From IMG/VR virus record IMGVR_UViG_3300045006_000088, positions 1-45,254 of that record: a stretch of 45,254 nt of DNA. One strand, written 5' to 3'. The notes under the pieces are model-generated. The model did not search any database and had not been told where the DNA came from. It saw only the letters and a list, made by a program, of their open reading frames with translations. The translations under genes and the position numbers were made by a program. Shown here in pieces: positions 2,793 to 9,194 of the stretch (the stretch's first letter is position 1; the number at the start of each line of letters is the position of its first letter). The DNA is from a virus.

Positions 2793-3617
2793 TTAGAAAT
2801 AATTTTTCTGACAAATAATGTGGAGATCGAACCACGACATACATCTTGAACTAAAATTCCTCCTCTTCATAATTATATTGAATCCAAGTCTCTCTAATTC
2901 CCTGCAAATGGCCCGCTCGGACCACAAGACATAGTGTTCTCTTCCTTTGAAATGCGGCCATCCGGAGATGGTTGTCTTATTGATAAAATCAATATCCGGA
3001 GTGGAAAGGAACAATACGCCCTTATCTTCCAGCAGATCGTACGCTCGCCTGAGAGCAGCAAGCGGATCCGGCATATGCTCCAGTACATGCCCCATCCAAA
3101 GAAGATCAAACTTACGTTCAAGCTTCTCACAGCCTGTAGCGCTCTTGATCGCATCATTAGAGAGCGAGAAATCATAGGACAGGAAGTCCCCTTTATAGAT
3201 ATTGCCCTGTCCAGTAAGAGTAGGGTTGACATCTATAGCCCACGTAAGCCATCCCCGCTCTTTCATTGCAGCCAGGATATAGGGAACGCAGAAACCGACC
3301 TCCAGCATCATCCTGCCATAGGTCAACTCCTCAATAAGGGGAGCGTACAACCTTAGGAGGTACTCGTACCTTTGCTTTGCGGACTTGCCGTCAGCAAGTA
3401 AAGCCACATATTTATCGTCATATATGGACTGATTCTCCGGAAACTTGTCCTGGAATATGACTCCGCAGGTGCAATGATACCATACCGATTTATCCCCTGT
3501 CTTACCATCCTCTATAGCATCTGCCCTTATAGTGTCTACACCGCATATAGGGCAGTGTTGGGGGACTATCTTGATACTATTGTCTTTTTGCTCCGATGAC
3601 TTCAGCAATTCTTCCAT
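2793..3617 (-). CDS. Zinc-ribbon class I SAM-dependent methyltransferase
   Basis: A 274-residue protein. An N-terminal zinc ribbon uses Cys22, Cys25, Cys49 and Cys51. It is followed by a Rossmann methyltransferase domain: the SAM-binding strand MLEVGF at 104-109, the acidic end of strand 2 (AIDVNP, 127-132) and the HVLEHMPDP motif at 177-185, as in Methyltransf_11/23 proteins acting on sugars or small molecules. Its start overlaps the end of the GT9 gene by 41 bases, so the two are translationally linked. This suggests methylation of a glycan, lipid or peptide made by the cassette rather than of DNA. The substrate is not deducible from the sequence. Confidence 0.85.
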   Translation of the reverse strand: MEELLKSSEQKDNSIKIVPQHCPICGVDTIRADAIEDGKTGDKSVWYHCTCGVIFQDKFPENQSIYDDKYVALLADGKSAKQRYEYLLRLYAPLIEELTYGRMMLEVGFCVPYILAAMKERGWLTWAIDVNPTLTGQGNIYKGDFLSYDFSLSNDAIKSATGCEKLERKFDLLWMGHVLEHMPDPLAALRRAYDLLEDKGVLFLSTPDIDFINKTTISGWPHFKGREHYVLWSERAICRELERLGFNIIMKRRNFSSRCMSWFDLHIICQKNYF

Positions 3618-4548
3618 AAAGCCTTTCCGGTTTCAACCCTTCGGCCTGGCACCAAGCAGCATGCGTTACCAGTTCGACAGGGCATTGTATGTTAGCATCG
3701 TATATTAACCTGAAGCAAGGAGCACAATCGCACTCGGCTTCCAGCGAGTAGTCGTTCTTAAAATGCTTAGTGATGTTAATTCGGGTTGTATGGCCCAATA
3801 AACCAATCTTTGGTGTTTCGTAGCAGCCAGCAGCGTGAAGTACACCTGTGTCCGGGGATATGACTAAATCGACAAGTGCCGTAAGCGCTAAGGCAATTCT
3901 GATCGGGATCCTTCCCGACAGATTGATTATCTTCGGATCCGTTATGCTTTCCAGGAGCTGACATTTCTCTTCTCCGGTTGTTAAAAATACTACATTATCG
4001 TAGTTCTTAAGTACCTCACACATGACAAAATCAGCCCAGGGGTATACTTTCTGGGCACCGGATCCGGATAGCTGCCAGAGGATATTGAACGACCCGGGTA
4101 CTAAGTGTTTGCGTGCTTCCTCGAGTTCAGAGGAGTCAAAAAATAACTCAGGAAGTCTTTGGTAGTCATCCAGTCCGGCCCACTGCGCCGTTTTGTCATA
4201 ATAGTTGAAATCGCATAGCGCCCTGCGCTCTTTCTTGGTATAGTTATATTCAGGTTGCACAGGGTGAAGCACGACATTGCATTCCAGGCTCTCTGAGAAA
4301 TTGAGGAAAAGATCCGGCTTGACTTCTTCCTTGAGTTTCTCCCAGTGCGCAGGCAAGTCATCAATGTGCATAGACTCGTCATGCAGGATATATTCGTCTA
4401 CGTTAGGGTTGTTTTCAAAGATCTCTTTCCCGCGCTTGTTCGTGTTAAGTACTACGTAATACCCCTGCTCTTTAAGGCGCTTGATAACCGGTGTGAGGAT
4501 TATCATGTCGCCGTAAGCTCCTAGCCTTATTACCAATGCTTTTTTCAT
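3577..4548 (-). CDS. Glycosyltransferase family 9 (heptosyltransferase-like)
   Basis: 323 residues, close to the family's usual 320-350. The N-terminus LVIRLGAYGDMIILTP (5-20) is the GT9 acceptor-domain signature, and SPDTGVLHAAG (231-241) followed by P-K-I-G-L-L-G is the nucleotide-sugar-domain signature. GT9 enzymes (WaaC, WaaF, RfaQ) add heptose from ADP-heptose to LPS core in Gram-negative bacteria; other members use different sugars. A Cys-rich CDCAPC at 273-278 is common in environmental members. It lies between the tiny zinc peptide gene (ATGA overlap) and the methyltransferase. The phage may glycosylate its own virion or alter host LPS; both are inferences. Confidence 0.9.
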   Translation of the reverse strand: MKKALVIRLGAYGDMIILTPVIKRLKEQGYYVVLNTNKRGKEIFENNPNVDEYILHDESMHIDDLPAHWEKLKEEVKPDLFLNFSESLECNVVLHPVQPEYNYTKKERRALCDFNYYDKTAQWAGLDDYQRLPELFFDSSELEEARKHLVPGSFNILWQLSGSGAQKVYPWADFVMCEVLKNYDNVVFLTTGEEKCQLLESITDPKIINLSGRIPIRIALALTALVDLVISPDTGVLHAAGCYETPKIGLLGHTTRINITKHFKNDYSLEAECDCAPCFRLIYDANIQCPVELVTHAAWCQAEGLKPERLYGRIAEVIGAKRQ

Positions 4549-4652
4549 ATACCCTTTTTATTGGCGCTCCAACATCTCAGTGAACAATACTTTTGCCCTG
4601 GGTTGCTTTTTCTTACCTTGAAACTTTTTCCGCAAGTGCACTTAACTTTCAT
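4545..4652 (-). CDS. Tiny zinc-ribbon-like peptide, 35 aa
   Basis: An ORF starting at 4652 inside the last 11 bases of the radical SAM gene and ending in a TGA that overlaps the GT9 ATG (ATGA). It encodes MKVKCTCGKSF, then a basic stretch, then KYCSLRCW. Four cysteines in a C-x-C ... C-x3-C arrangement look like a minimal zinc knuckle. Overlaps at both ends support real translation as a coupled cistron. A role as an accessory peptide or substrate of the cassette is speculation. Confidence 0.55.
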   Translation of the reverse strand: MKVKCTCGKSFKVRKSNPGQKYCSLRCWSANKKGI

Positions 4653-5637
4653 ACGCTACACACACCTGGCAAGGAGTGCCTTTCAGCGCTTCCTGGCCTT
4701 CAGTAATCGTCCTAAGTTGTGCTTCACGAAGATGCTGAAATCTGATACTATTCCACATACGCATAAAATTCCTGCCGTCCAAAATACCCATATCAAACCT
4801 ATCGTCAGCACCAAAACAGCAAGCAGAGAGCCCACCATCAGCTCTAACGTGACCCTCAGTAAACGCAGACCAGCAAGGAATAGGCTTACGCAAAGGCTCC
4901 AGAGTTTCATCATCCAACCTCCCCACGTTTCCGGCAGAAGGCGTATAACCAAGCATCTTCTCCATGTAGTCTTTATACATTGACATCTGATATAACGGAA
5001 GCCAGTAGTGGCGGTCCACATAAGGCTTGATCTCCGTTTGTATGAACGGCTCCATCTTGGCCTTCTGTTCAGCACCGTACAGAATTGAACTTGCCGACAG
5101 CATGGTGTCGTAATTACCGGTGATCTTCTCTATCCAAGCTGACTGGATATTGTCTATAGCCTTTTCGAATAACTCCGGACTCTTATTGGTGATAGTCTTA
5201 AATTGCTCACCATCAGAGAAGTTTACCGACCATTTAAGGCTGTCCAGCCCAGCATCCATTATAGCCCTGACTTTATCCGGGGTAGCAAGTGTAGCGTTGC
5301 TGGTCAGGAATACATAGGGGAATTTAAGCTCTTTTTTTACCCACTCGCAGCACTTGATCAACAAGCGCGTATTCATGAACGGTTCCCCAAGATAGAATAA
5401 GCCGATCTCCTCTACTCCGGAAATGCGCATATCTTCGGTGATCTTCTTGAAGAACTCAAGGTCCATATCAGGAGGCGGAGCGATAGTGCGCATACCTACA
5501 GCGCAGAACTTGCACCTAAGATTGCAGTTAGCTGTCAGTTCAATCTTAACGCTCTTAGGAGGAGGCTGTATACCACCCATTTGTATGCGGATATCATCAA
5601 TCTTGGTTACAGCATCGATCTTATTAGTAATGTCCAC
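4642..5637 (-). CDS. Radical SAM / SPASM-domain enzyme
   Basis: 331 residues starting with GTG; AAAGGAGGTCAAGTA precedes it, and TAGTG joins it to the upstream gene's stop. The [4Fe-4S] motif C-x3-C-x2-C is Cys38, Cys42, Cys45. FYLGEPFMN (81-89) is the usual GEP strand of radical SAM barrels. A C-terminal SPASM-like auxiliary cluster region has Cys255, Cys273, Cys274, Cys323 and Cys326. SPASM enzymes typically modify peptides or carry out dehydrogenations, epimerisations and thioether formation; others act on sugars. Flanked by glycosyltransferase- and methyltransferase-type genes, it is likely to make an unusual modification. Radical SAM/SPASM genes are rare in phages. The reaction cannot be assigned. 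Confidence 0.9.
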   Translation of the reverse strand: MDITNKIDAVTKIDDIRIQMGGIQPPPKSVKIELTANCNLRCKFCAVGMRTIAPPPDMDLEFFKKITEDMRISGVEEIGLFYLGEPFMNTRLLIKCCEWVKKELKFPYVFLTSNATLATPDKVRAIMDAGLDSLKWSVNFSDGEQFKTITNKSPELFEKAIDNIQSAWIEKITGNYDTMLSASSILYGAEQKAKMEPFIQTEIKPYVDRHYWLPLYQMSMYKDYMEKMLGYTPSAGNVGRLDDETLEPLRKPIPCWSAFTEGHVRADGGLSACCFGADDRFDMGILDGRNFMRMWNSIRFQHLREAQLRTITEGQEALKGTPCQVCVAYES

Positions 5638-7064
5638 TACTTGACCTCCTTTGCCTGAACAACAGCAATAAACTGTTCGTGGCCACGGCGGTTACGCTCT
5701 TTCTTCTGTTCTATTATCCTGAACCTCTTGCGCAACTTGGCGTACCAGATGTCAAACTCAAGCAAGGACAGGTGGCAATTGCGCCCATCTGAGTAGTTCT
5801 TTGCGGCAGGAGTAAGGCAGATGGAGATAAAAGCCAACTTCTTGGTCAGCTTCTGTAAATGGTCAAGCACGTTCTCTATGCACTCAGGCTCTATATGCTC
5901 CAAGACATCTGTGCATACCACAAAATCAGCAGGCTCCGGGTCCTTTGAGTGCTCATCAATACATGGGTCGTAGGATTTATATTCTACATCAACGATCTTC
6001 GGCAGAGACTCTATGAGGGTGTTCCTGCCGCAACCGTAGTCAAGCATTGTTATCTTGCCATATCTCTTTGCCAACTGGCCTGCAAGCAACGCCACTCTGC
6101 CGGCATAATCCTGTCCTACTGAACCAAACATCACATCCCTCTCAGTGGCATCGTCAGACTTGAGGAACATCTTCTTGTTCATCTCAAGCATATATGGAGT
6201 AACGAGCAAGTCATGCTTAGGCTTTTCAACGGCTTCATCTATCTTATTGATGTGGTTAATCAACCCATCTCCAAAGATAATAAATTTAATCCACTCTAAC
6301 CTGTGTTTCCATTTGATAAACTCGCGGGCTTGCGAGGCGAATACTGGAGTGGACAGATACTCTTTCCCATCATCACACCTTACGTCAAGGATGTTCTCTG
6401 ACCTATCCTTATCGTATGAGTAGTATATAGGCTTGCCGTCAGCATCTTTCTCAAAGAAACAGCTGTCAAACCCATAGAACTCTACAGTTCTGTAGCCAAG
6501 TATGTTGGCTAAAGTCATCGCCCTCAAGCCGGCCATAGAACCGCCTTCAAGCGGAACATACTCGTCTTTATCAAAGAACGCTGCAAGGATCTGAAGGTCG
6601 CTTATGTTATCTACAATAGTCCCGGAAAGCGATACTACACGCTTGACATTATGCCCTTTCAGTGCCTCGAATACTTTAGGGTGGCAGCAGATCCCGATGA
6701 GGTAGGTGACGTCCTTATGCGGATTCTGCACATCCTTGACCTTGCCTTCTTTCGGGTCTATCATAAAAAAATAGTCAGGGATGATCTCGTTCGAAATCAG
6801 CCAATCATGAGTCTTATTGGAGCAGAATATCCTGTATTTAGTCTTGTCTTTGCTCTTCGCACGGATATCCTCGAGAAAGAGCTTTGCGGTAGGGCCTCCG
6901 CATACCATGACCATTGTAAGGTCATTCTCTGCCTCGATATTAACGAGAGGCAAGTCTAACTTACAATTTGCCCTTATCTGGTTTATGAAGTCTTTCTCCT
7001 TGATAGGCAACGTGCCGCCCTCTGGCGGTGGTCCCCATTCTCCAACAAGCTCTTTTCCGTACAT
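5637..7064 (-). CDS. DUF115/MptE-like domain fused to SAM methyltransferase
   Basis: 475 residues in two domains. Residues about 50-275 match the DUF115 (MptE-like, also seen in Maf flagellin glycosyltransferase-type proteins) pattern: strand MVMVCGGPTAK (51-61), DYFFMIDP (97-104), and EGGSMAGLRAMTLANILGY (173-191) followed by FYGFDS. Residues about 335-470 form a class I methyltransferase, with LDYGCG (341-346) for SAM binding and DVLEHIEPE (386-394). DUF115 relatives transfer nonulosonic acids to flagellin or make pterin pyrophosphate, so sugar or pyrophosphate transfer plus methylation is plausible. It is the first gene of the cassette, separated from the capsid-side genes by a perfect 13-bp hairpin. 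Confidence 0.8.
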   Translation of the reverse strand: MYGKELVGEWGPPPEGGTLPIKEKDFINQIRANCKLDLPLVNIEAENDLTMVMVCGGPTAKLFLEDIRAKSKDKTKYRIFCSNKTHDWLISNEIIPDYFFMIDPKEGKVKDVQNPHKDVTYLIGICCHPKVFEALKGHNVKRVVSLSGTIVDNISDLQILAAFFDKDEYVPLEGGSMAGLRAMTLANILGYRTVEFYGFDSCFFEKDADGKPIYYSYDKDRSENILDVRCDDGKEYLSTPVFASQAREFIKWKHRLEWIKFIIFGDGLINHINKIDEAVEKPKHDLLVTPYMLEMNKKMFLKSDDATERDVMFGSVGQDYAGRVALLAGQLAKRYGKITMLDYGCGRNTLIESLPKIVDVEYKSYDPCIDEHSKDPEPADFVVCTDVLEHIEPECIENVLDHLQKLTKKLAFISICLTPAAKNYSDGRNCHLSLLEFDIWYAKLRKRFRIIEQKKERNRRGHEQFIAVVQAKEVK

Positions 7065-7083
7065 TTATGACTCCTTTAGGTTA

Positions 7084-7113
7084 GGGGCGGAGGAGATCGC
7101 TCTCCCCCACCCC
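7084..7113 (-). other. 13-bp perfect hairpin with GCGA tetraloop between capsid and enzyme genes
   Basis: Bases 7084-7096 pair with 7101-7113 across a four-base loop that reads GCGA in the transcript, a GNRA-type tetraloop. The stem is very GC-rich with two G-U pairs. No T-run follows on the minus strand, so it is not a classical terminator. It could slow or partly stop transcription or protect the 3' end of abundant capsid mRNA from exonucleases. It lies 9 bases beyond the stop of the decoration-like gene. Confidence 0.65.
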
Positions 7114-7122
7114 TTCGGTTAA

Positions 7123-7542
7123 TTAAGCATATGTATCAGGGAACAAAACCTGATAATCATATGTTACTATCCAGTCACCCTTTTCGTTTGCTGTCAGTTT
7201 CAACGCTATGTACTGAGAGATAGTCTCAAGCGTCTTCTCTGTCAGAGTCAGGGTAGTTGCAAACCCTAACGAACAACCGGAAAGCGTGAGTCCTTTCAGC
7301 GTGGTGGCAGTTCCGGCAGTATCATAGTGAATAACCTGCAGTGAACCGGCAGTCGCTGAAGGTGCAGAGATAGCAAGAACTGATACCCTGCTTACCAGAA
7401 CTTTGTTGCGTGAAGCAAAGTGCGCCCAAAGTGTACCGGAAGCCTGTCCTGCTGCTCCTGTCCAACAATGCTGATGCTGACCAGTAAAATAAGGATGCGA
7501 ATACGAGCCGACATCAGAGCCTCTGGTATAGTTTCCAGCCAT
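7123..7542 (-). CDS. Probable capsid decoration or head-surface protein, 139 aa
   Basis: Directly downstream of the major capsid gene, the usual place for a decoration protein. The sequence starts MAGNYTRGSDVG, has a His/aromatic-rich stretch near residue 20, and is otherwise beta-rich with many small residues (SVLAISAPSATAG, LTLSGCSLG). The pattern of small-residue strands resembles the protein at 44587-45246, though the similarity is weak. It would be co-expressed with the capsid protein. Decoration is inferred from position, not a recognised domain. Confidence 0.6.
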   Translation of the reverse strand: MAGNYTRGSDVGSYSHPYFTGQHQHCWTGAAGQASGTLWAHFASRNKVLVSRVSVLAISAPSATAGSLQVIHYDTAGTATTLKGLTLSGCSLGFATTLTLTEKTLETISQYIALKLTANEKGDWIVTYDYQVLFPDTYA

Positions 7543-7552
7543 ATTAGCCTCC

Positions 7553-8398
7553 TTATAGTGAAGTCAGGTGGATAATTCTCGTTTCCGAGTCATTGGTAAA
7601 ATCCCAAGCGATTTTGAAACCGCCGAGATAGTACCACGCGATCGCCTGATCTCTTCCGAAATCTTTAGGCAGATCGATACGAATATCTTCAGGTATGACT
7701 ATGCCTTCACGTACGGCATCGCCACCGAAGAATACTGCTTCTCCGTCCACGCTACCAGATCCTAAGGTGTTCTTCAGGATATTGGTCTCTTCCACGAAAC
7801 GGCAACCATAATACTGACCAACTTCGCCGTTGTATAGCGGTTTGGCAGTAGTCTGGCTGATCTTGGCCTCAAAGAAATCATAGAGACCGCGAATGCTGTT
7901 TGTAGAAGCGATACAGATGTAGTTGCCACCATCGTAACGCGGAACGTTCAACGTCTTCAGTTTATCAACGACATCGCGGACGGTCTTGTCTGACATCGAA
8001 CCAGACGAGGTTGCGGAAGCGGTGCCGGAAGTGCTGAAGGTTGTCGTTGCGGTGTTTACAACAGCCGCTTTGTACACGCAGGTTTTAAATTCTGCGGCAG
8101 CTGCTGAATCCAGGACTTTGGCCATGTCATTTCTCAATACCGTTTTCACGATATCAGGAACGGTAACATCTGCTAAGCTCTGGACCTTGAGTGTATACGG
8201 GATTGCATTACCGTATTCGTTGACCGTCAGAGTGCTCTGGACGATCGTGTAATTCCTCTTCGGAATGGTCGACGTTTCGCTCAACGTCCCGCCAGCTGTA
8301 GAGATATTGCTGATCTTATCAAAGAACACTTTATCTCCACGATTCTTGCCGGCTGCGGGGTCAGCATTGACGAATTGTCTAAACTTCATCAACGGCTG
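7553..8398 (-). CDS. Major capsid protein, exon 2 (N4-gp56 family)
   Basis: Codons 29-309 of the capsid protein; exon 1 is at 9195-9278 and a group I intron lies between. The joined protein is 309 residues, a little short for the family. Exon 2 begins QPLMKFRQFV, the strongly conserved N-terminal block. The C-terminus carries the family signature: AVFFGGDAV, EGIVIPEDIR, KDFGRDQAIAWYYLGGFK. This HK97-fold shell protein would assemble around the upstream scaffold. Without splicing only a truncated product from a TTG at 8401 would be possible, lacking the N-arm. Confidence in family and split is high. Confidence 0.9.
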   Translation of the reverse strand, partial: QPLMKFRQFVNADPAAGKNRGDKVFFDKISNISTAGGTLSETSTIPKRNYTIVQSTLTVNEYGNAIPYTLKVQSLADVTVPDIVKTVLRNDMAKVLDSAAAAEFKTCVYKAAVVNTATTTFSTSGTASATSSGSMSDKTVRDVVDKLKTLNVPRYDGGNYICIASTNSIRGLYDFFEAKISQTTAKPLYNGEVGQYYGCRFVEETNILKNTLGSGSVDGEAVFFGGDAVREGIVIPEDIRIDLPKDFGRDQAIAWYYLGGFKIAWDFTNDSETRIIHLTSL

Positions 8399-9194
8399 CA
8401 ATTATGTTACGCTTTTAAAAAGCGGTTGGTTATTTCTAACCAACTCTCCATATTTCTATGGAGTTCAGACTATATCTTCAGTTCGGTTGAACTGCACCCT
8501 GTATTTTGTATCTCATCGAAGGGATTTGATTTATCATTGGTGATACTATGTCAAAGAACCTGGAATTATCCTTGTGCTTCAGATACAATCGGTAATATTG
8601 AGTTTTCCGATGGATATTCCAATTCAAATCCCATTTCAATTTAAAGCATTTCTGGAGCATTAAATGTTCGGCATAATTAAAATTGTTCTTATTCAATTCT
8701 ACCGATCCGTTTGAAGAATAACTCCCATCATCCATATAAATTATGGCTAAACCAATATCTGTGAGCATTTTCAAGCAATGCTCGTCCAGAGTTTTCCTGC
8801 CATTATAATATAGACGTTCCCATAGTTTAGTATAGAAAGGATGGCACATAGAGGAAATCCGAATTGTTTTTGTCTGGTTGAATCCCCCTATATAATCATC
8901 CATCCTTACTGAAGTTATTTCTTCAAGCATTTTCCTTTTCCAGTTAAGGTAATCAAGAGATTTTTCAGCATGCGCCACAGACAGTCTTGCGTTTTTGCTT
9001 GCCCCATGACGGCTTATGCCATTTTTTGAAGTTGCTGGCAATGCTAGTGAACCATCTCCGATTACCATCCCTATAACTGCTCCTTTTAATTCCTGCTTAT
9101 TCATAGTCGTTACACCTTCCTTGCTGGATTGGCTCGGTATTATCCTTTCGGACGTCCACCGAATTAAGGGTGTTTATTGCGGCCCATTTTGTTA
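8399..9194 (-). other. Group I intron in the major capsid gene
   Basis: A 796-nt intron inserted in phase 0 between capsid codons 28 and 29. The exon ends in GCGGCT, whose final U can form the conserved U-G wobble: TGCGGCU pairs with the internal guide GGCCGCA about 10 nt into the intron (P1). The last intron base is G (8399), the expected omega-G. P7 forms between GACTA at 9104-9108 and TAGTC at 8468-8472, inside the conserved S-like element AAGATATAGTCT (8467-8478). P4 forms between CGGT (9158-9161) and ACCG (9134-9137). Joining the exons restores a family-consistent reading frame. It should self-splice in the late transcript. Confidence 0.9.
8478..9104 (-). CDS. LAGLIDADG homing endonuclease in the intron
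   Basis: 208 residues with two LAGLIDADG motifs: LKGAVIGMVIGDGSL at 6-20 and LTDIGLAIIYMDDGSY at 114-129, each ending with the catalytic acidic residue. It would therefore work as a monomer, cutting intronless capsid genes to spread the intron. The ATG shares its first base with the 5' strand of P7 and the stop overlaps the S element, so the coding region occupies the entire stretch between the two P7 strands. AAGGAAGG about 10 bases before the ATG is a probable ribosome site. It may also act as a maturase. Confidence 0.92.
   Translation of the reverse strand: MNKQELKGAVIGMVIGDGSLALPATSKNGISRHGASKNARLSVAHAEKSLDYLNWKRKMLEEITSVRMDDYIGGFNQTKTIRISSMCHPFYTKLWERLYYNGRKTLDEHCLKMLTDIGLAIIYMDDGSYSSNGSVELNKNNFNYAEHLMLQKCFKLKWDLNWNIHRKTQYYRLYLKHKDNSRFFDIVSPMINQIPSMRYKIQGAVQPN

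Follow-up and report, generated by a model that had tools for sequence, protein, structure and literature searches.

A putative exchangeable virion-glycosylation module beside the capsid gene of an uncultured phage

We analyzed the IMG/VR virus record IMGVR_UViG_3300045006_000088 (the window: the whole record, 45,254 bases, to whose positions the coordinates refer). Between its capsid and tail genes, it carries a cassette of glycan-type modification genes. A preliminary description had treated this cassette as one fixed five-gene pathway. It instead has a proximal and a distal part. The proximal block encodes an MptE/DUF115 transferase-methyltransferase fusion (MptE-MT) and a radical SAM/SPASM protein (rSAM). 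It is exchangeable and travels with p7123, a small protein gene that follows the major capsid protein (MCP) gene. The distal pair encodes GT9 and znMT and belongs to the phage backbone. We propose a phage-encoded, exchangeable virion-glycosylation module with p7123 as decoration protein and acceptor, a reading to which we give a probability of about one half. It builds on the observed gene content, intact motifs, capsid linkage, block boundaries and cosegregation of the p7123 subtype with enzyme type. The features are as follows.

7123..7542, minus strand: p7123, small protein predicted to be beta-rich, between MCP and the enzymes; candidate decoration protein and acceptor
5637..7064, minus strand: MptE-MT, MptE-like/DUF115 transferase domain (residues about 40-203) fused to a methyltransferase domain (about 330-450)
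4642..5637, minus strand: rSAM, GTG start, with CNLRCKFC cluster motif and SPASM cysteines
4545..4652, minus strand: Zn frame, 35 codons with a CTC...YCSLRC zinc-knuckle motif
3577..4548, minus strand: GT9, glycosyltransferase of heptosyltransferase fold, distal and conserved within the cassette
2793..3617, minus strand: znMT, zinc-ribbon S-adenosylmethionine methyltransferase, paired with GT9
4548..7540, minus strand: exchange block (p7123, MptE-MT, rSAM and Zn frame), from DNA similarity breakpoints

Exchange of p7123 with the proximal enzyme genes

The block boundaries were read from comparison with loci L005, L014 and L015, whose MCPs are 95%, 96% and 88% identical to that of the window. 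The related loci are all metagenomic. DNA similarity covers the MCP gene up to position 7540 (L005), 7539 (L014) or 7537 (L015), and the p7123 start codon is at 7542-7540. Similarity is absent across p7123, MptE-MT, rSAM and the Zn frame. It is back at 4535 in L005 and at 4548 in L014 and L015. Position 4548 is the GT9 start codon, so similarity returns at or just inside the GT9 start. The downstream genes p2597 and p2149 stay in place when the block is swapped. From these breakpoints, GT9-znMT goes with the phage backbone, and the preceding block, including p7123, is exchanged.

The order MCP, p7123-type gene, MptE-MT, rSAM was also found in G001 (L107), G002 (L003), L114 and L115, whose MCPs are 34-46% identical to that of the window. 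L004 has the same order plus a 99-residue Cys-rich gene ahead of rSAM. L114 and L115 were retrieved by MptE-MT alone after the hypothesis had been set down; in both, MptE-MT is preceded by a p7123-type gene and followed by rSAM (L116 repeats L114). The p7123 subtype is common to all six MptE/rSAM phages found. With leave-one-out small-protein profiles, each of five MptE phages ranked top (E 4e-20 to 1e-43). The sixth, L004, came next at about 1e-12 (best 8e-13), and all others stood behind it (best 3e-9). p7123 belongs to the exchange unit with MptE-MT and rSAM.

For the association tests, cluster thresholds were hand-set once, and a few loci with a miscalled or family-unlike small gene were excluded. 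Across 58 loci, the class of the first enzyme matched the small-protein type almost one to one. The match held for MptE (6/6), sulfotransferase (6/6) and C-methyltransferase (7/7). The GT4 class fell within two small-protein types (14/14), and the GT9/methyltransferase class was mixed. Adjusted mutual information over 41 dereplicated phages was 0.64 for small protein and enzyme, 0.10 for MCP and enzyme, and 0.19 for MCP and small protein. Permutation within MCP clusters gave p=5e-4, the lowest value that this test allows. In partial Mantel tests, small protein and enzyme were correlated given MCP (r=0.37, p=5e-4), and the value for MCP and enzyme given the small protein was 0.00. The small gene lies directly next to both MCP and the enzyme, so that simple linkage, which may still contribute, predicts no such asymmetry.

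Cassette proteins and their distribution

All five frames of the preliminary description were found in their place on the minus strand as one run, with neighbors overlapping or abutting. Its domain calls (DUF115, radical SAM/SPASM, GT9 and two methyltransferases) were confirmed by family matches. Coding is beyond doubt, with rSAM 60-66% identical to proteins of three other phages. Identities to other phages' proteins are 32-54% for MptE-MT, 36-78% for GT9 and 48-77% for znMT.

MptE-MT contains PF01973 (E=6e-16, 59.2 bits against a cut-off of 34.6) and Methyltransf_23 (PF13489; E=8e-8). Both domains were recovered in five related phages, which brings PF01973 to six of six. The match to the NCBIfam PseD model (2e-7) reached 29.8 bits against 670 required, with the alignment confined to the central domain.

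rSAM contains Radical_SAM (PF04055; 1e-13, above cut-off) and SPASM (PF13186; 4e-5, 24.3 bits against a cut-off of 21.5) domains. The cluster cysteines C38-C42-C45, noted in the preliminary description, are intact. They and the SPASM cysteines C255, C273, C274, C323 and C326 are invariant in eight relatives, two of them at only 22% identity. The predicted model supports the CxxxCxxC motif on a partial TIM barrel. It resembles BlsE most, then SuiB, anSME, MoaA, DesII and EpeE, at 12-18% identity in the structural matches. Going by the modeled fold, the substrate may be a sugar or a peptide. The protein matches no named NCBIfam equivalog. A relative about 52% identical occurs in L020-L022, in a different phage context and beside several more radical SAM/SPASM genes. 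The run there also encodes GT29 sialyltransferase-like, DXD-sugar transferase, galactosyltransferase-like and aminotransferase proteins and is without MptE or p7123.

GT9 belongs to Glyco_transf_9 (PF01075; 2.5e-12, 47.1 bits against a cut-off of 22), with conserved G13-D14 and a D-T-G/H-A region. It falls in no characterized lipopolysaccharide (LPS) heptosyltransferase equivalog; TIGR02193 gave 33.7 bits against 185 required, and the others were also far below. znMT matches Methyltransf_23 (PF13489; 1.3e-19). Its N terminus has a C-x2-C...C-x-C motif, and cysteines 22, 25, 49 and 51 are invariant in eight relatives.

The 35-codon Zn frame, listed as a tiny zinc peptide of the cassette in the preliminary description, is probably an incidental open frame outside the pathway. 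It has no match in the NCBIfam/family search. In L107, L003, L114 and L115, no counterpart follows rSAM at this position, and other genes come next, including sulfotransferases and an isomerase. The sole match is a 117-amino-acid open reading frame within the interrupted capsid region of L035 (877-1230). A role as precursor of a ribosomally synthesized and posttranslationally modified peptide (RiPP) or as a zinc cofactor peptide was rejected on the empty position in related loci and the resemblance to the L035 zinc knuckle.

A GT9-alignment scan of viral contigs gave 225 relatives, of which the best 80 were kept and 79 loci examined. The same MCP family lies upstream on the same strand in 68 of these 79 loci, found via GT9 alone, with a median distance of 893 bases to the nearest GT9. 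The remaining 11 have no MCP in the available DNA. In eight of them, the locus edge is no more than about 1.1 kb from the GT9 start, and in L055 it is 2.0 kb away; in L045 and L052, about 7 kb of upstream sequence contains no MCP. Between MCP and the tail genes, a single small gene is followed by a variable run of enzymes. The run may contain GT4-type transferases, GT2, GT9 paralogues, methyltransferases, a sugar C-methyltransferase (Methyltransf_13/14) and sulfotransferases. Hexapeptide proteins, UDP (uridine diphosphate)-sugar-dehydrogenase-like proteins, a B12 radical SAM protein and a KdsD-like isomerase also occur. GT9-znMT closes the run in the nearest relatives of the window, and the pair order is kept in L005, L006 and L011-L015. 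The place of the cassette is fixed, and the enzyme content varies. The cassette had been placed directly after the capsid genes; the capsid-side position stands, with p7123 lying between as part of the unit.

The B12-binding radical SAM protein is encoded at L010:11129-12397 in a capsid-adjacent cassette. In NCBIfam it comes nearest to PhpK P-methyltransferase, HpnJ, BchE and AprD4, without reaching the cut-off of any of these models. The isomerase is a KdsD/KpsF-like SIS protein (arabinose-5-phosphate isomerase; E=1e-45) at L114:8545-9201 in a sugar cassette. It is truncated, with no room for the CBS part.

No counterpart of rSAM or GT9 was found in 50,697 phage records (GT9 at E 1e-5), in keeping with the view that no phage system of this composition had been described. 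Two genome-collection scans confirmed no host relative, a weak negative, as each used two degenerate peptide patterns. No MptE-MT relative was confirmed in plasmids. For rSAM, the plasmid search gave only proteins about 25% identical, from Azospirillum plasmids (near glycosyltransferase and polysaccharide-deacetylase genes), Brachyspira and others. An origin as a host genomic island was set aside on the weak negative of these two-pattern scans and on the plasmid matches. The cassette recurs in phages with capsid genes.

Capsid gene and genome setting

7553..8401, minus strand: MCP main exon, phrog_1357 major head protein (2e-17)
About 9278-9196, minus strand: MCP exon 1, from DNA comparison breakpoints
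9104-8478, minus strand: LAGLIDADG open reading frame inside the intron
14587-13229, minus strand: terminase large subunit
13238-11142, minus strand: SU10-type portal

A group I intron of roughly 800 bases splits the MCP gene after about codon 28 (window 9278-7553). It was identified from DNA comparison breakpoints and a match to Rfam RF00028 that stays under the gathering score (E=2e-8). The MCP gene of L014 is uninterrupted. Interrupted capsid genes are also present in L015, L030, L031 and L056, and the break in L015 is at a different place.

The minus-strand order is terminase large subunit, SU10-type portal, scaffold-like gene, MCP, p7123, cassette, small genes and tail genes. The closest MCPs of cultured phages are at most 38% identical and come from Vibrio phages, Xuquatrovirus PTXU04 and Escherichia phage Bas95. 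At 41577-39679 lies a homologue of a cluster c12 gene, which in relatives comes after the cassette. The contig therefore probably represents a nearly complete genome that was opened within the tail region.

The tail-region genes at 37304-35532 and 1381-281 encode proteins with Laminin-G/ConA-like domains (PF13385; 9e-37) and, below cut-off, a CBM5/12-like stretch. Their domain matches suggest carbohydrate binding. A Prim-Pol/D5-type primase-helicase and an N6/N4 DNA methylase are encoded at 25623-23599 and 20144-18693. DNA modification was considered as the role of the cassette and set aside: no cassette protein is above the cut-off of any DNA-modification family, and the DNA methylase at 20144-18693 is separate. 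The promoter count is at chance level. Terminator-like sites are uninformative (8 observed against 4.4 expected; standard deviation, 2.3).

Proposed pathway, alternatives and known systems

p7123 would be made right after the capsid protein and would accept sugar as a decoration protein. The MptE/DUF115 domain, related to Maf/PseD, would attach the first sugar. This may be a CMP (cytidine monophosphate)-activated ulosonic acid of the 3-deoxy-D-manno-octulosonic acid (Kdo)/nonulosonate kind. A Kdo-like donor is suggested because the L114 cassette carries the KdsD-like isomerase; CbMaf accepts Kdo (PMC11339370). The fused methyltransferase of MptE-MT would methylate the sugar-bearing product, and rSAM would change that sugar by oxidation, epimerization or deoxygenation. 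GT9 would then add a heptose-like sugar, which znMT would cap by methylation. We infer the presence of p7123 in the virion, its role as acceptor, the sugars used and the order of steps.

The AlphaFold model of p7123 has eight strands and predicts a beta sandwich (pLDDT [predicted local distance difference test], 77). This predicted fold is most naturally read as that of a decoration protein, for which p7123 is a candidate. Compared by profile with the second gene that follows MCP in PTXU04, Bas95 and two Vibrio phages, it gave a probability below 1%. A profile search of viral contigs returned only the contig of G001; this search missed relatives found otherwise and has little weight.

Several points count against p7123 as a glycosylated decoration protein. 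Its fold matches, to jelly-roll and beta-sandwich folds, viral coat proteins and phage fibers, are weak (TM [template modeling] score about 0.4-0.6). It has no known relative, with no homologue found in the cultured relatives, and the small-protein subtypes are too divergent for common ancestry to be proven. Linkage alone can swap neighboring genes together, and the partial Mantel signal is weaker but present for the scaffold gene too. The window showed no genes for sugar-nucleotide synthesis. The cultured relatives (38% identical MCP) have no annotated sugar cassette. They keep MCP, the small genes and, where these are annotated, the head-completion genes. The cassette is therefore dispensable in the wider family.

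Modification of the host surface is the best-placed alternative. The cassette would then alter LPS or another surface glycan against superinfection or receptor-bound debris, and p7123 would be a linked bystander. The heptosyltransferases that build the LPS core belong to GT9. A pelagimyophage structural-region island with glycosyltransferases and radical SAM is read as O-chain modification (PMC7029224). However, the swapped block carries p7123 along and leaves p2597/p2149, and enzyme type is predicted far better by small-protein type than by MCP. The site between capsid and tail genes also implies late expression, which is late for exclusion. Coexchange with p7123 favors the virion over the host surface as target, and we consider host-surface modification unlikely.

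We give little credence to rSAM as a peptide-modifying enzyme, RiPP-like or acting on a p7123 or capsid residue, with the sugar genes serving a separate function. SPASM enzymes often act on peptides, the model is also like SuiB, EpeE and anSME, and the short Cys-rich frame adjoins the rSAM gene. Yet that frame is not at this place in related loci, the L020-L022 relative lies among sugar genes without MptE or p7123, and the top structural match, BlsE, is a sugar-nucleoside enzyme. It is still more improbable that another virion part, a tail fiber or the capsid protein itself, is modified: the same virion logic applies, the tail genes come after the cassette and Che8 glycans are reported on capsid proteins (PMC11256854), but MCP type does not follow enzyme type (adjusted mutual information as above, 0.10) and nearly identical MCPs coexist with different enzyme sets.

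Virion glycosylation of p7123 may exemplify a general strategy, which we advance tentatively and with somewhat less confidence than the module itself. A capsid-side acceptor and dedicated glycan enzymes would form an exchangeable unit, with Maf-like plus radical SAM, GT4, C-methyltransferase or sulfotransferase enzymes. Near-identical capsids would thereby bear different, chemically elaborate glycan coats, with methyl or sulfate groups on some of them. Few examples of glycosylated phage virions are known. If the proposal is true, virion glycosylation is widespread, capsid linked and modular in uncultured phages, and a likely acceptor is named for each enzyme set. The units would then provide naturally matched acceptors and enzymes for protein glycosylation, among them radical SAM chemistry on the phage particle. 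They also make it possible to test directly whether sugar genes beside the capsid gene act for the particle or on the host surface.

The cassette proteins resemble several known enzymes. BlsE, BtrN, DesII, EpeE and SuiB share the CxxxCxxC barrel and SPASM-like C-terminal cysteines with rSAM, whereas rSAM has low identity in the structural matches (12-18%, as given above) and fits no named NCBIfam equivalog. WaaC, WaaF and RfaQ share the GT9 fold and the GxxGD and D-x-G-x-x-H-A type motifs. The GT9 of the window differs in being far below every heptosyltransferase equivalog cut-off and in forming its own phage clade beside capsid genes. The Maf/PseD flagellin glycosyltransferases are of the PF01973/DUF115 family. 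Maf is known to act on a protein acceptor, and CbMaf takes Kdo (PMC11339370). MptE-MT differs from them in having the core domain only, fused to a methyltransferase, and in being phage borne with no flagellin.

Two phage systems are comparable. The pelagimyophage host recognition cluster is likewise a hypervariable structural-region island with glycosyltransferase and radical SAM cassettes. It differs in belonging to T4-like myophages, in being GT8 rich and in lying between VrlC and gp14 with tail fibers; the available part of that paper describes no small protein beside the capsid that is swapped together with the enzymes (PMC7029224). In mycobacteriophages of the Che8/Rita type, phage-encoded glycosyltransferases are proposed to modify virion proteins, whereas DUF115, radical SAM and acceptor-linked exchange are not described in the available part of PMC11256854. 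Che8 is a known example of capsid glycosylation in a phage (Freeman et al. 2023, cited in PMC11256854). Glycosyltransferase genes are tied to virion structural genes here, as in phage virion glycosylation systems.

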